A stretch of DNA of 40,923 nt from Blastocatellia bacterium. Its GTDB lineage: Bacteria > Acidobacteriota > Blastocatellia > HR10. The notes beneath the pieces are model-generated. The model ran no database searches. It had not been told where the DNA came from and worked only from the letters and a program-made list of their open reading frames with translations. The position numbers and the translations under genes were made by a program. Where the stretch lies: assembly GCA_035573895.1 (NCBI GenBank), contig DATLZR010000162.1, positions 1 through 40,923 of the forward strand, given 5' to 3'. How positions within the stretch are numbered: position 1 is the stretch's first letter; each line of letters opens with the position of its first letter. Below, in pieces: positions 24,511 through 31,123 of the stretch.

Positions 24511-27500
24511 TCACGATGCATCGGGGGAAGATGGTGCGGATGGGGATACGTTGCCGGTAGGTTCAACCGCCGGCAATAAGCTCTCCTCTTCTTCGATGCT
24601 CTCGGATTCGGTGGTCAGAGAGCGTGAAGCGGAAACGCCTTCGGCCCGAGCGATACGCGGCGCGTGCCGCAGTCGCCGTTGCCATTGCGCAGAGAGCCCA
24701 CCGGTGAGAAGCTCAACGTCATGGGGTGGAGGGTGAAGGGCCGGGCTGGCTGTCCCGCGTTGTTGAATGGCTTTGCGATAGGCAGCATTGGCGGCTTCCA
24801 GATCGCCCTTCATGTAGAGCACGCGCCCCAGATCGTTGTACGCTTCGGCAAAAATGCCCTGCCGCTGCTCGATGGCGATTTTGAACTCCTCGATGGCCGA
24901 GGCCAGCTCGCCGCGACGGGCATGAAGGCGACCTTTCTGATAGTGTGCTTCGGGAAAGAATCCCCGGCTCTGGCGAATGGCCTGAATCATCTGCTCAATC
25001 GCGGCGTCGAGCTGTCCTTTGCGGGCCAGCAGCAATCCCGCTTCATAGTGAGCGTCGGGATAGCCGCCGGGTTGAGCCGCACAGGCAGCGCGGAGGACCG
25101 AGATCGCTTGATCGAGGTCGCCATGAGCGGCCAGGGCGCGGCCGAGCCAGTATTGCGCTTCGGGATAGTGACTTTGCTGCTCCAGAGCCGTGGTGAATTC
25201 GGTGATGGCACCAACGTAGTCGTTCTTTTCGTAGAGCGTTCGTCCCAGTTCAAAATGAGCTTCGGGATAGATGCCCGCCCGTTGATCAATGGCTGTACGA
25301 AAGGCCTGGATGGCCGCTTCAAACTGGCCCTGACGCGAGGAGACCACGCCCAGATAATAATGCGCCTCGGGGTCAACCGGTTGAAGAGCGATGACCTGGC
25401 GGAACGCTGCTTCGGCCTGTGCCAGATCCCCGGCATCGAGCAAAGCCAAGCCGAGATTGAGATAGGCGTGGGGATCGGTCCCGTGACTCTGATCGGCGGC
25501 GCGGCGGTACATCTCAATGGCCGTCGTCAGATCCCCTTTGCGAATGTAAGCGTTGCCGAGATTGCGAAGGGCTTCGGGGAAGATGCCACCGCTGTCTTCG
25601 ATCGCTTTTTGATAGGCGGCGATCGCATCGTCGAAAAGCCCCTTGGTGTAGAGAGCATTCCCCAGATTGTAATAGGCCAGCGGAAACGTCTCGCACTGAG
25701 CGATGGCCTGACGAAAGGCATCGAGAGCCTGATCCACCTCGCCCAGATCCGCCAGCACAATGCCCAGACGACACCAGGCGTGGGGAAAGATGTTTTTCTG
25801 CGTCTCGATGGCTCGGCGAAAGGCGGCCACAGCTTCGCTCAGCTCGCCCTTCTCATAATGAGCCACGCCGAGTTGATAGTAGGCATCGCTGAAATCGTTC
25901 CGCTCTTCGATAGCCTTTGTATAGGCTGCGATAGCTTGTGCCAAATCGCCGCGCGCGAAGTGTGCGTTCCCCAGATCGTAAAACGCTTCGGGGTACACCT
26001 CGCCGGCGTAGCGAATGGCTGCGGTGAAGGCGGCGATGGCTCCTTCCAGGTCTCCTCCGTCGGCCAGGGCCAGTCCGAGATCGTGATGGGCTCGAGCGAA
26101 ATCTTCTTTCAGCCGGATAGCCTCTTGAAATTCTTTGACGGCCTCCGTCACGTTCCCATCCAGATAGAGCGCTACGCCCAGAGCGTGATGAGCCTTGGCG
26201 AAGTGAGGGTTGAACGTCAGAGCCTGGCGGTAGGCCGCGATCGCTTCTTCCAGCTTACCCACGCGGGTCAGGGCGCGACCGAGGTGATAATACGCGCCGG
26301 GAAATTCCGGGCATTGCTCAATGGCCAGATGAAATTCCTGGATTGCTTCGTTGACGTCGCCGGCGTCCAGAAGAGCGCGACCGAGATGATAATGCGCTTC
26401 GGGGAACTCGTAGCGCCAGGCGATGGCCTGACGAAACGAGGCGATGGCGTCGGGGAGGGCCTCCGGGCCTTTTCGCGCCAGAGCACGTCCGAGGTCGAGA
26501 GCCGCTTCGGGCCAGGGGTCGGGATGTTGCGCCAGCGCCGTGCGCAACGCGGCAACGGCATCATCAATGCGATCGTCGGCATAGTAGGCGGTCGCCAGAT
26601 CACGATAGGCTTCGGGATAGTGGCCCGCCCGCTGCTCGATGGCGCGCTGGAAGGCGCGCACGGCCAGATGCAACTCGTCCGTCGAAAAATGAATGCGCCC
26701 GAGCAGATGATAGGCTTCGGGAAACTGATCCCCGCGTTGCTCGATGGCCGTGAGGAGCGTGCGCCGCGCTTCCTCCATCTGACCTTGTTCAAACAGCACG
26801 CGCGCGAGATTGAAATACGCATGGGGGAAGTGAGGATGGGCTGCGATGGCTTGACGGAAGGCCGTAGCGGCTTCGGCCAGTTCTCTCCGGGCATGAAGCA
26901 CGCGCCCGAGGTTATAAAGCGCGCGGGCATGCGTTCCTCCCGACGATGCGATGGCCGCGCGGAAGGCGTCGGCGGCAGGCTCTAACTGACCCGCGCGAGC
27001 CAGCAGATGTCCCAGTTCGTAGTGAGCATCGGTCACCTCGTATCCTTGAGCGATCACGCGACGATACCGCTCGGCTGCTTCCTCGAGCTGGCCATCGGCG
27101 GCCAGAGCGCGAGCCAGCTCCAGTTCGGCTTCGGGGAACTTTCCCTGGCGTTGCTCCACGGCTTTGCGGAAGGCCTCAATCGCGCCGGTCGTGTCACCGC
27201 TGGTGATCAGCAATCGTCCCAGATCATAATACGCTTTGGGGAAGAAGGGATTCTGCTCGATGGCGCGACGACAGGCAACAAGGGCTTTTTCCAGTTCGCC
27301 CTTCTGTGCCAGAGCCAAAGCCAGATGATGATAGGCCGCCGGGAACGTGCCCTCCTGTTGACGGATGGCTGTCTCCAGCGCTTCGATGGCTCGATCGCTA
27401 TCGCCCCGACGCAGGTAGGCGCGACCGAGATTAAAATAAGCGGCAGCGTTGTTGGGCTCGGCGGCGATACACTGGGTGAAGGCGGTGATCGCCTCATCAA

Positions 27501-28197
27501 CCTGCCCGCGTGCCAGCAGCGCGCGTCCCAGTTCAAACTGCGCTTCGGGATATTCTCCTGCGCGTTGCTCGATGGCGGTGCGAAAAGATTCGATGGCTCC
27601 CTCCAGATCGCCCTTGCCCATGAGCAGCCAGCCGAGCTGGAAATGCACGGCGGGACTGTTTCCGCCCGATTGCTCGAGCGCTGTGCGATAAGCGGCGATG
27701 GCCTCATCAATCTCGCCTTTATGCGCCAGTGCCCATCCGAGGTTGAAATAAGCACGAGGGAAAACTCCGCCGCGTTGAGCGATGGCCTGACGAAAGGCGG
27801 CGATGGCCCGATCAATCTCGCCTTTGCTCAAGAGCGCCAGGCCAAGACTGTGGTACGCGCCCGGATGGTTGCCCGATTGCTGTTCGATGGCACGCTCATA
27901 AGCGGCGATAGCGCGATCGGTATCGCCGCGTCGGGACAGAGCCAGACCCAGGTGGTAATAGGCATCGGGATAATGCGGTTGTTGTTCGATGGCCGTCGTG
28001 AAGGCGGCGATCGCTTGATCAAGCTGGCCGGCATCGGCGAGTGATTTCCCCAGAAGGAGATAGGCCTTGGGGAATCGTCCATGCTGCTGCTTGATGGCCG
28101 TGCGCAGCGCGGCGATGGCGGCTTCCAGGTCACCTCGCTGATAGTGGGCCTGAGCTTGTTCGTAGTGCTGTTGCGCGATGTTGCCGTATGCGTCCAT
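24511..28197 (-). CDS. Giant TPR protein (33 tandem repeats)
   Basis: The protein (1228 residues from the ATG at 28197) is almost wholly tandem tetratricopeptide repeats. I count 33 units of 34 or 35 residues with the pattern A-Y-x-x-LG-x-AL-x-x-x-G-x-x-x-x-AI-x-x-F-x-x-AI, many ending in Q-R-x-G-x-F/Y-PE. There is no signal peptide or membrane segment. The last 90 residues are a low-complexity tail (ESIEEEESLLPAVEPTGN). TPR superhelices bind peptides or proteins, so a cytoplasmic scaffold or partner of the adjacent kinase is inferred. No Shine-Dalgarno precedes ATG 28197 or the alternative GTG at 28245. The start lies inside the end of the kinase gene in another frame, an overlap of 68-116 bp. 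Some of the TPR units match those of the kinase in style, suggesting a shared origin. Confidence 0.88.
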   Translation of the reverse strand: MDAYGNIAQQHYEQAQAHYQRGDLEAAIAALRTAIKQQHGRFPKAYLLLGKSLADAGQLDQAIAAFTTAIEQQPHYPDAYYHLGLALSRRGDTDRAIAAYERAIEQQSGNHPGAYHSLGLALLSKGEIDRAIAAFRQAIAQRGGVFPRAYFNLGWALAHKGEIDEAIAAYRTALEQSGGNSPAVHFQLGWLLMGKGDLEGAIESFRTAIEQRAGEYPEAQFELGRALLARGQVDEAITAFTQCIAAEPNNAAAYFNLGRAYLRRGDSDRAIEALETAIRQQEGTFPAAYHHLALALAQKGELEKALVACRRAIEQNPFFPKAYYDLGRLLITSGDTTGAIEAFRKAVEQRQGKFPEAELELARALAADGQLEEAAERYRRVIAQGYEVTDAHYELGHLLARAGQLEPAADAFRAAIASSGGTHARALYNLGRVLHARRELAEAATAFRQAIAAHPHFPHAYFNLARVLFEQGQMEEARRTLLTAIEQRGDQFPEAYHLLGRIHFSTDELHLAVRAFQRAIEQRAGHYPEAYRDLATAYYADDRIDDAVAALRTALAQHPDPWPEAALDLGRALARKGPEALPDAIASFRQAIAWRYEFPEAHYHLGRALLDAGDVNEAIQEFHLAIEQCPEFPGAYYHLGRALTRVGKLEEAIAAYRQALTFNPHFAKAHHALGVALYLDGNVTEAVKEFQEAIRLKEDFARAHHDLGLALADGGDLEGAIAAFTAAIRYAGEVYPEAFYDLGNAHFARGDLAQAIAAYTKAIEERNDFSDAYYQLGVAHYEKGELSEAVAAFRRAIETQKNIFPHAWCRLGIVLADLGEVDQALDAFRQAIAQCETFPLAYYNLGNALYTKGLFDDAIAAYQKAIEDSGGIFPEALRNLGNAYIRKGDLTTAIEMYRRAADQSHGTDPHAYLNLGLALLDAGDLAQAEAAFRQVIALQPVDPEAHYYLGVVSSRQGQFEAAIQAFRTAIDQRAGIYPEAHFELGRTLYEKNDYVGAITEFTTALEQQSHYPEAQYWLGRALAAHGDLDQAISVLRAACAAQPGGYPDAHYEAGLLLARKGQLDAAIEQMIQAIRQSRGFFPEAHYQKGRLHARRGELASAIEEFKIAIEQRQGIFAEAYNDLGRVLYMKGDLEAANAAYRKAIQQRGTASPALHPPPHDVELLTGGLSAQWQRRLRHAPRIARAEGVSASRSLTTESESIEEEESLLPAVEPTGNVSPSAPSSPDAS

Positions 28198-30901
28198 TGC
28201 TGCTGTCACGCCCGCGAGTCCCGCGCCGATTGGCCTGCCCCGCACCGGCAGGTTGTGTGATGGCCTGTGCTACACCGTAGCGCGAATGTTCGAGTCTCCG
28301 ATGATGCTGAGCCGAGCCTGAGCCTCTCTCCAGGCCAGCGAAATTATACACGACGGCCCGTCCTCCCGTGAGAGTGATGGTGAGAGAGGCGCCCGGCAAC
28401 GGCTTCAGGCGCACGATGTCGCTTCCGTTGAGAGTGAGAACGATAGCCGACGGCCCCAGGGTCACCCCCAGACGTCCGGCGAAAGCGTCGGTCAGGCGGC
28501 CCGTGAAGGGAACGAGATCGAGCGGTTCCTCCTTGCGCCCGCTCAGGCGGACGGCGCGAATGGTCAAGGAAGGGCGATCCGCCGGTCGCCCGTCCTCTGC
28601 GGCTCGTTCCACCTTGACCGCAACTCCGGAATCACCTATCCGAAAAGCTATCGTCGCGCGATCGTCAAGTGGCGTCAGCGCGAACTGAAACGAAACGGTT
28701 CCACCGTCAGGAAGCGATGCCAGAAGCGGACGACTGACAGGCGTCGTTCGGGCCAGCAACGTGATGGCATCCTGGCTGGCCGCCAGCATCTGGTGGGCAT
28801 CGGCCACAGTCCAGACCTTGCGAGCGGCCTCGAGCCGCCCGAGACGAAGGAAATAGAGTAGACCGAGCGCGTGCTCCGCCTGTGGGAAGCGACCGCCACG
28901 ACTCGTAATGGCCGCCTGCAATTCTCTCTCGGCCCCGTCGTAGTCGGCAACGGCAAGATCGGCCAGCACCGTTCCCAGTGCGGCTTGCGCCTGGGGATAG
29001 AATCCTCCGCGCAAGCGCAGTGCCGTGCGGAGTTCCGTCAGGGCTCCCGCCTCATCTCCCTGGCGATAGAGGGCCAGGCCGAGAGCATATCGAGCGGCAG
29101 GATAATTGCCACCGCGCTGAGCCACAGCCGTGCGCAGCACCTCAACGGCAGCCGGGAGATCACCGGCTTCAAGCAGGGTCAGACCCAGGTGCAAATAGGC
29201 TTCGGGGAAAAATCCCTTCTTCAGCGCCACGGCTCGCCGCAGTTCGCGCACGGCCAGCTCATACTGGCGGCGCAGCAGCAACACCTTTCCCACCTCCAGC
29301 ACATCGTCGGCGGTATCGCCGGCCTGACGGATGACTGCGGAAAACGCTCGTTCGGCGTCCTCGGTTTTTCCCCGCTGCAGCAGGAGGCGACCCAGTGCCA
29401 CCTGTGCCCGAAGGAGCGTCCCCTGACTGTGTTCGATGGCGGCGTGAAATTCCTTGAGCGCGCCGTCCTCATCGCCGCGTTCAGCGAGCAGCTCGCCCAA
29501 ACCGAGGTGGGCTTCGGGTTGCGTCCCTCCGGTTTGCTCCAGCGCCAGCAGGAACTCGCTCTCTGCTCCGGCCAGCTCTCCCTGATCGAGATAGATCGTA
29601 CCGAGCAGACAATGGGCCTTGGGTTGAGTGAAGGCGCTTTGCTGGATGACCGTACGCAGTTGGTGAACGGCTCCTTCCCGATTCCCTTCGTCGAAGAGCT
29701 TGAGGGCAGCGTCCACCGGGTCAACGAGAGATAGAGGAGGGGGATCAACGCGCACGACCGGAGGGGATGGCAGCGGAGGGATCATCCGATACCAGCGATA
29801 AAACCGATGAGCGGCAACGCCACCTCCGATCACCAGAGCGAGTGCGCCGAGCGACAGTGCGCCCGCCACGACCCGCCGATACGCCGGACGGGATAATCGA
29901 ATCCGCCCCTGAGTGTGATCCGCACGGGCCACCGGTTCTGTTGGAGCGGCTCGCCGTTGCAGGCGTGTTTCCGGAGCCTGACCGGCGACTGTGGGAGTGC
30001 TCTCGACGGCCTGTGTCGGATGGGAGCCACTCAGCCGCACGGCATCCTCGAACTGACGCGCAAAATCCAGCGCGCTCGGCGGGCGCTCACCCGGATCCTT
30101 TCTCAGAGCGCGAAGCACAACGGTTTCGATCTCCGGGCTCAGATCAGGACGATACCGTCGCAACGGAGGCGGTTCAACACTCGCGTGCTTGAGCATCACC
30201 TCCAGGGGATCACCCTCAAACGGAGGATGACCGGTGAGCATCTCGTAAGCGATCACACCCAGACTGTAAATGTCCGACAGGGCCGTGGGACTTTTGGAAT
30301 TGCACTGCTCGGGCGAAGCATACTCCGGCGTGCCGATGAAGAGATTGCGCGACGCGGGAAGTCGTCCGCGCTTCTGCTCATCGAGGACTTTGGCGATGCC
30401 GAAGTCGAGGACCTTGACATAGTCCCGTTCACCGGCGACGCGCTGAAGAATAATGTTGTCGGGTTTGAGGTCCCGATGGACAATCGAATGGGCGTGCGCA
30501 TCGGCCAGAGCCGCGCAAATCTGGCTGAGAATCCAGGCCACTCGTGGGGGCGGAAGCGGACCTTCCTGCTGCATCAGTTCGGTGAGGGTTCGCCCCTCGA
30601 TATACTCCATCAACAGATAGACGACATCGCCATCGCGCCCGCAGTCAATGATGTTGATGGCGTGGGGATGGGTGATGTAGGCGGCCGCGCGAGCTTCGTG
30701 AAGGAAGCGTTCGACAAAGCTGGGATAAGCGGCCAGGTCCTCCAGGAGCACCTTGATGGCGACGACCTTGTCCGTGACGATGTGACGGGCGCGATAGACG
30801 CGCCCCATGCCGCCCTGTCCGATTTTGGCTTCAATGCGGTATTTTCCGGCGATGGTCCGCCCGATCAGAGGGTCCTGCGCCACCTCCTTCATCATGGTCA
30901 T
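28130..30901 (-). CDS. Transmembrane Ser/Thr protein kinase with TPR sensor region
   Basis: The 923-residue protein starts with a Hanks-type kinase domain (about 22-290): glycine loop GQGGMGRVY (28-36), Lys50, Glu69, HRDLKPDN (142-149), DFG (167-169) and GTPEYASPEQ. All catalytic residues are present. A juxtamembrane linker leads to one membrane segment (about 344-366). The part beyond, predicted outside the cytoplasm, has a Pro-rich stretch, about nine TPR units (about 395-690), and a beta-rich domain (about 700-860, FQFALTPLDDRATIAFRIGD) like a lectin-type sandwich. The final 60 residues are basic and look non-native, as if read after a frameshift. ATG 30901 was preferred to GTG 30946 because similarity begins near DPLIGRTIAGKYRIE. 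It probably senses an extracytoplasmic signal and phosphorylates cytoplasmic targets. Confidence 0.92.
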   Translation of the reverse strand: MTMMKEVAQDPLIGRTIAGKYRIEAKIGQGGMGRVYRARHIVTDKVVAIKVLLEDLAAYPSFVERFLHEARAAAYITHPHAINIIDCGRDGDVVYLLMEYIEGRTLTELMQQEGPLPPPRVAWILSQICAALADAHAHSIVHRDLKPDNIILQRVAGERDYVKVLDFGIAKVLDEQKRGRLPASRNLFIGTPEYASPEQCNSKSPTALSDIYSLGVIAYEMLTGHPPFEGDPLEVMLKHASVEPPPLRRYRPDLSPEIETVVLRALRKDPGERPPSALDFARQFEDAVRLSGSHPTQAVESTPTVAGQAPETRLQRRAAPTEPVARADHTQGRIRLSRPAYRRVVAGALSLGALALVIGGGVAAHRFYRWYRMIPPLPSPPVVRVDPPPLSLVDPVDAALKLFDEGNREGAVHQLRTVIQQSAFTQPKAHCLLGTIYLDQGELAGAESEFLLALEQTGGTQPEAHLGLGELLAERGDEDGALKEFHAAIEHSQGTLLRAQVALGRLLLQRGKTEDAERAFSAVIRQAGDTADDVLEVGKVLLLRRQYELAVRELRRAVALKKGFFPEAYLHLGLTLLEAGDLPAAVEVLRTAVAQRGGNYPAARYALGLALYRQGDEAGALTELRTALRLRGGFYPQAQAALGTVLADLAVADYDGAERELQAAITSRGGRFPQAEHALGLLYFLRLGRLEAARKVWTVADAHQMLAASQDAITLLARTTPVSRPLLASLPDGGTVSFQFALTPLDDRATIAFRIGDSGVAVKVERAAEDGRPADRPSLTIRAVRLSGRKEEPLDLVPFTGRLTDAFAGRLGVTLGPSAIVLTLNGSDIVRLKPLPGASLTITLTGGRAVVYNFAGLERGSGSAQHHRRLEHSRYGVAQAITQPAGAGQANRRGTRGRDSSNGRIRQHRATALRTSSGPLSAR

Positions 30902-31026
30902 CCCAGAGGATCCTGACGCGGAGCCTGCCTGTGCCCTGCCCGGCACGGTCGGCCAATGCGGAGAGTCTGTGCTACAACGGAACCGGGATATCGTTTCTGC
31001 TCCATCGCATGATGATGACCTGCCCG

Positions 31027-31055
31027 TTGCAAGATCACCGCCTCCCCTTTATCCT
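31027..31055 (+). promoter_or_regulatory. Candidate promoter of the asparaginase gene
   Basis: TTGCAA (31027-31032) and TATCCT (31050-31055) are separated by 17 bp, each matching four of six consensus bases. The gene's ATG lies 69 bp downstream. The match is moderate and the call tentative. Confidence 0.3.
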
Positions 31056-31123
31056 AGTACGCTCTATCTTATTTGCAATCCATGTTAAATGCAAACACTT
31101 TGTCGAGTGAAGGAGGCTCATCC

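Follow-up and report, generated by a model that had tools for sequence, protein, structure and literature searches.

On the reverse strand of a 40,923-nucleotide stretch of a Blastocatellia bacterium genome (contig DATLZR010000162.1; the window), a gene for a receptor-type Ser/Thr kinase runs, in another frame, into the beginning of a gene for a giant TPR protein. Is this one broken gene, a pair whose translation depends on the overlap, or two genes whose ends happen to collide? A preliminary description of the window favored the first two possibilities, proposing either a single gene of about 2100 residues split by a frameshift or coupled translation of the second gene. Based on the comparisons below, we think it likely that the locus is a conserved unit of two separate, co-directional genes found in one order of the Blastocatellia, and that the overlap in the window is a local loss or shift of the kinase stop codon.

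The two genes and their products

The upstream gene encodes a Hanks kinase with a predicted extracytoplasmic sensor. The open reading frame extends over 28130-30946 (-) and opens at GTG 30946. ATG 30901, internal to this frame, matches the starts of relatives better, most orthologues beginning near the equivalent position, and from there the gene (28130..30901, (-)) has 923 codons as assembled. The cytoplasmic kinase domain (30080..30841, (-)) matched PF00069 (E of 4e-50 in one search and 2.7e-51 in another), and its alignment contains GQGGMG, VAIK, HRDLKPDN, and DFG, motifs that we take to have their catalytic roles here. A single transmembrane helix follows (29816..29872, (-); residues 359-377; best 19-residue hydropathy of 2.15). 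The hydropathy peak is in a similar position in all ten kinases of the order and the TPRs are C-terminal to it. Kinases of this kind usually have their C-terminal part outside the cytoplasm, and from that orientation we infer the same placement for this one.

Structure prediction indicated a TPR solenoid capped by a beta-sandwich. The predicted helices of the solenoid cover ectodomain residues 33-348 (28772..29719, (-)), with about seven TPR-like units by profile, and the C-terminal galectin/ConA-like beta-sandwich (28340..28795, (-)) has its last conserved strand ending at 28340. The mean pLDDT was 87.6 for the ectodomain and 85.0 for the sandwich alone, modeled from ten sequences. Galectins ranked first in a Foldseek search with the sandwich (E down to 2.8e-7). 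A second aligner (VIA) matched it to a levanase chain (Z of 11.5, rmsd of 2.8, 122 aligned), and levanase and xylosidase sandwiches, CBM66, SPRY domains, and galectins were all at Z 9.4-11.5. As modeled, the sandwich is a ConA-like fold, which often, but not always, binds sugars; only three of its columns are invariant among the ten sequences. The Pfam scan of the window's sandwich gave no family, and single-member matches to DUF4703 and DUF6484 (E of 0.02 and 0.2) were dropped as chance. The top Foldseek match to the whole ectodomain (E of 2.7e-12, TM-scores of 0.29-0.36) is a resemblance of the repeat only, and PF20308 (TPR-S), at 22.1 versus a cut-off of 27.6, was not used. These results bear out the earlier reading of a Hanks kinase joined to a TPR plus beta-sandwich sensor.

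The downstream gene encodes a protein made of TPR units along its whole length. Its open reading frame, 24511-28245 (-), has two possible starts, GTG 28245 and ATG 28197. We rejected the GTG because the starts of the relatives align with the ATG instead, and the gene (24511..28197, (-)) therefore encodes 1228 residues. TPRs were found along the entire protein with Pfam, and a profile that we built from the protein itself recovered 32 units and one 71-residue gap fitting one more, giving the 33 units described earlier. NCBIfam names above cut-off (MamA, PrsT, and others) and PF20308 (79.1, also above cut-off) were not used, as their scores sum over the repeats. The 19-residue hydropathy never rose above 1.13 in any of the ten TPR proteins of the order, so the protein is probably cytoplasmic and, judging from sequence, presumably soluble. 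After the array there is an LRxA motif (24661..24672, (-); LRHA in the window) that was at one aligned place in 19 of 19 homologues (the window, L011-L019, and L028-L036), many with LRQAP. The C-terminal tails flanking the motif are variable among these homologues. We also noted an open frame of 773 codons on the strand opposite the TPR gene (24664-26985, (+)), which is probably a shadow of the codon usage of the repeat.

The pair is conserved in one order

The two genes are linked in every genome of the order. We compared 58 genomes, ten of which, including that of the window, make up the order and represent three families. The C-terminal region of the kinase was matched in all ten and in none of the remaining 48. 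We examined 15-18 kb around the kinase match in the nine relatives, and in each of them the TPR orthologue lies directly after the kinase gene on the same strand, separated by 7-135 bp (in G007 the TPR start is uncertain and the gap is 72 or 135 bp). The relatives' TPR proteins have 1217-1240 residues and are 48-62% identical to that of the window in an almost gapless alignment. The linkage proposed in the preliminary description is thus found in 10 of 10 genomes, window included, and the survey turned up no relative in which the genes are unlinked and the kinase ends with the same tail.

The kinase and the TPR protein are encoded by separate open reading frames in all nine relatives. The TPR gene is in frame 0 relative to the kinase in three of them, frame 1 in one, and frame 2 in five; in the three with frame 0, the two genes share a frame yet are separated by a stop. 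Such variation in relative frame is hard to reconcile with a split gene or with a conserved programmed frameshift.

Across the three families, the TPR array has a nearly constant length, an unusual property, it seems, for an array of repeats.

Genes downstream of the pair in the relatives hint weakly at envelope biogenesis. All nine relatives have, a few kilobases downstream, an open reading frame with RRYGG or RRFGG near its end. Where checked, in two relatives, this frame is an undecaprenyl diphosphate synthase gene between genes for a pseudouridine synthase (before) and a cytidylyltransferase (after). In L011-L019, the pair is upstream of genes for pseudouridine synthase, undecaprenyl diphosphate synthase, cytidylyltransferase, and DXP reductoisomerase (checked with Pfam in L016 and partly in L019). 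None of the 10 window proteins scanned belonged to the families encoded by these truA-uppS-cdsA-dxr-like genes, a difference in surroundings that counts against a conserved unit.

The overlap is peculiar to the window

The overlap is due to an unusual position of the kinase stop codon. As had been described, the two open reading frames and their out-of-frame overlap are real in this assembly: the overlap is 68 bp from ATG 28197 or 116 bp from GTG 28245, with the TPR frame at +1 relative to the kinase. Beyond its last conserved strand, the kinase continues for 69 residues (28130..28339, (-)) that read through the spacer and then 68 bp inside the TPR gene, to TGA 28132-28130. The relatives have only 2-37 residues after that strand (2 in five of them, then 8, 9, 33, and 37), and the window's tail is absent from all nine. 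Between the last strand and the TPR start, the window has a spacer of 142 nt and the relatives have one of 35-162 nt; because its length is normal, only the position of the kinase stop is unusual.

By codon usage, the part of the tail inside the TPR gene does not look like kinase coding sequence. We scored true coding windows (5% point of -0.028, median of 0.200, lowest of -0.219, n = 131) and wrong frames (95% point of 0.010, n = 262). Read in the kinase frame, the overlap part scored -0.603 per codon, less than any of these coding windows; read in the TPR frame, it scored 0.204. The spacer part scored -0.027 in the kinase frame, next to the 5% point of true coding windows. Based on these scores, the overlap part looks non-coding and the spacer part is ambiguous; that the spacer part is not clearly non-coding is a point against our preferred reading. 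The foreign C-terminus suspected earlier is nonetheless real, with relatives that have no such extension and with low codon scores.

The 3' end of the kinase gene drifts. G008 and G009 (two species of one genus; L013 and L018) have spacers that align apart from a 2-nt indel; beyond it, the tails differ and the stops shift. The available text of one study reports that unidirectional overlaps arise more often by 3' extension of the upstream gene (PMC3887535).

We considered whether the stop was lost in the cell or in the assembly. A sequencing or assembly indel in the spacer (28340-28198), with the kinase really ending before the TPR start, is a special case of the reading that we prefer. A stop precedes ATG 28197 in each of the two other spacer frames, so a single indel would suffice; there is no overlap in any of the nine relatives, and the assembly is a draft of 184 contigs. 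In the accessible part of a survey of gene overlaps, none of 715 co-directional overlaps longer than 60 bp was genuine, all being judged erroneous, and 3'-end extension was one of five classes of error (PMC2478687). However, the kinase frame is unbroken and shows homology as far as its last strand, and the natural drift of the stop in G008 and G009 means that no error is needed. We regard an assembly error as a substantial possibility, at rather less than even chances.

Homologues of the TPR protein beyond the order

The TPR protein reaches beyond the genomes in which it is paired with this kinase. With E <= 1e-80 as the limit, a profile made from the ten TPR proteins matched 19 of the 58 genomes: all ten of the order plus nine more from the same class. 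Seven of the nine outside homologues have 1196-1329 residues (one is cut by a contig end) and 41-43% identity over the aligned length; the other two have 722-745 residues and 32% identity. Outside the order, the length of the protein thus varies from 722 to 1329 residues. A scan of named genomes gave seven full-length loci, apparently those of seven of the nine relatives in the order, and one partial match of 27% (L027). Among 149 genomes sampled from the phylum, five matched, all inside the class.

A kinase gene adjoins the TPR gene at none of the seven outside loci that are readable on both sides (families f4, f9, and f6). We examined all nine outside loci, but the contigs of L030 and L034 begin at or just before the TPR gene. 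In L029, a kinase is encoded about 3 kb from the TPR gene on the opposite strand. In three loci of family f4 (L028, L031, and L033), the gene before the kinase-free TPR gene presumably encodes a LysR-type regulator.

These loci raise the possibility that the kinase and the TPR protein are merely neighbors, the giant protein keeping an older, kinase-free function. Its occurrence alone in f4, f9, and f6 is what this would lead one to expect, and neighbors in an operon need not interact, which counts against a functional link within the pair. Against this, the adjacency is kept in all ten genomes and three families although the wider surroundings of the window differ. On balance, we consider it unlikely, though worth bearing in mind, that the two proteins act independently.

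Coupled translation and a split gene

It is improbable that the overlap itself is under selection. According to this explanation, the TPR gene is translated only with the help of ribosomes that have passed through the kinase 3' end, and the two proteins are thereby made in a set ratio. We found no Shine-Dalgarno-like stretch in the 20 nt preceding ATG 28197, in agreement with the earlier statement that the TPR gene has no ribosome binding site, and the very short gaps in G009 (7 bp) and G008 (17 bp) are likewise followed by TPR starts without one. Both observations would suit reliance on upstream ribosomes. A clear GGAGG precedes the TPR start in only five of the nine relatives, all of one genus, so the missing Shine-Dalgarno of the window is not special. 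Folding of the RNA around the start regions revealed nothing distinctive. A scan of 28000-31100 for sigma-70 promoters found no promoter-like sites (0.3 expected), and a TATAAT near 28348, a candidate TPR promoter, was rejected as it has no partner hexamer. Only the window, among the 10 genomes, has the overlap, and codon usage in it follows the TPR frame only. The kinase stop is 65 nt downstream of the TPR start. In the sections available of work on termination-reinitiation, such coupling is restricted to very short overlaps or gaps and is almost abolished by an intergenic distance of about 20 nt, a value measured on gaps and not on long overlaps (PMC10666635). The coupled translation proposed in the preliminary description is therefore doubtful.

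Both proteins have TPR units with a similar 34-35-residue period, and the ectodomain TPRs match the neighboring TPR protein (115 bits) better than the rest of the genome's proteins (65 bits for the next), but a single gene of about 2100 residues, whether broken by a frameshift or joined by programmed frameshifting, can be set aside as very improbable because none of the nine relatives is fused and three relative frames occur, because the TPR gene begins at an aligned start of its own, with a separate Shine-Dalgarno in five relatives, because the TPR protein is found alone outside the order, and because a fusion would place the TPR array outside the membrane. We do not press common descent of the two sets of TPRs, as a 33-unit array offers more chances to match.

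A model for the pair

We propose that the kinase is a receptor and that the TPR protein is probably its scaffold, adaptor, or substrate. The receptor would consist of the N-terminal Hanks kinase domain, one membrane helix, and an extracytoplasmic TPR solenoid capped by the lectin-like beta-sandwich; its partner would be a soluble cytoplasmic TPR superhelix of 33 units ending in LRxA. Binding of an envelope ligand to the ectodomain would change dimerization and autophosphorylation of the kinase, and the TPR protein, in the same compartment as the kinase domain, would gather substrates or be one. We hold this account of a ligand-switched kinase acting with the TPR protein tentatively, at somewhat less than even chances. 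A more specific version is speculative and considerably less probable: that the lectin-capped receptor signals to a dedicated superhelix recruited by the ancestor of the order from a kinase-free protein, with LRxA serving as a docking or regulatory peptide. In the window, either a natural change or an assembly error would have removed or shifted the kinase stop within a short spacer under weak constraint, extending the frame 68 bp into the TPR gene.

With the split gene and the functional long overlap removed as a false lead, a testable module takes their place: an overlapping or split giant gene would be ordinary or an artefact, and what remains is a conserved, uncharacterized kinase-TPR unit. 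The fixed length of the array suggests that the overall shape of the superhelix is important. In addition, an older TPR protein that became paired with a kinase offers a natural before-and-after comparison of how bacterial kinases acquire partners.

Comparison with known systems

A search of titles and abstracts found no description of a relay of kinase plus giant scaffold in bacteria, and several known kinases share parts of the arrangement. The best NCBIfam match over the kinase domain was the family of PknB/Stk1 PASTA kinases (NF033483), at 317.6 bits. The cut-off of 450 was not reached and there was no PASTA family among the 17 Pfam matches, and we rejected this identity. Chains that combine a kinase with TPRs, as the window kinase does, have been reported since 2005 from several phyla; the cases in the available part of that report are domain fusions, whereas the window has a separate giant TPR partner (PMC1262709). 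In PknG, as far as the accessible text describes it, TPRs couple signal detection to substrate phosphorylation, a likeness to what we propose, but in PknG the TPR domain is the C-terminal part of a single chain and the proposed scaffold in the window is a separate protein (PMC8546545).

In its predicted layout, the window kinase resembles the receptor kinase PknS. PknS of Xanthomonas citri, in the portion of its description available, likewise has an N-terminal cytoplasmic Hanks kinase, one membrane helix, and periplasmic TPRs, and its periplasmic part seems to restrain autophosphorylation when there is no stimulus (PMC13147305). An ECF43 sigma factor, the PknS-type partner, was absent from the 10 window proteins scanned. 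By the same partial account, PknS carries three TPRs and its target is the sigma factor EcfK, whereas the window kinase has about seven TPR units, a lectin-like sandwich, and, as its constant neighbor, the 33-unit TPR protein (PMC13147305).
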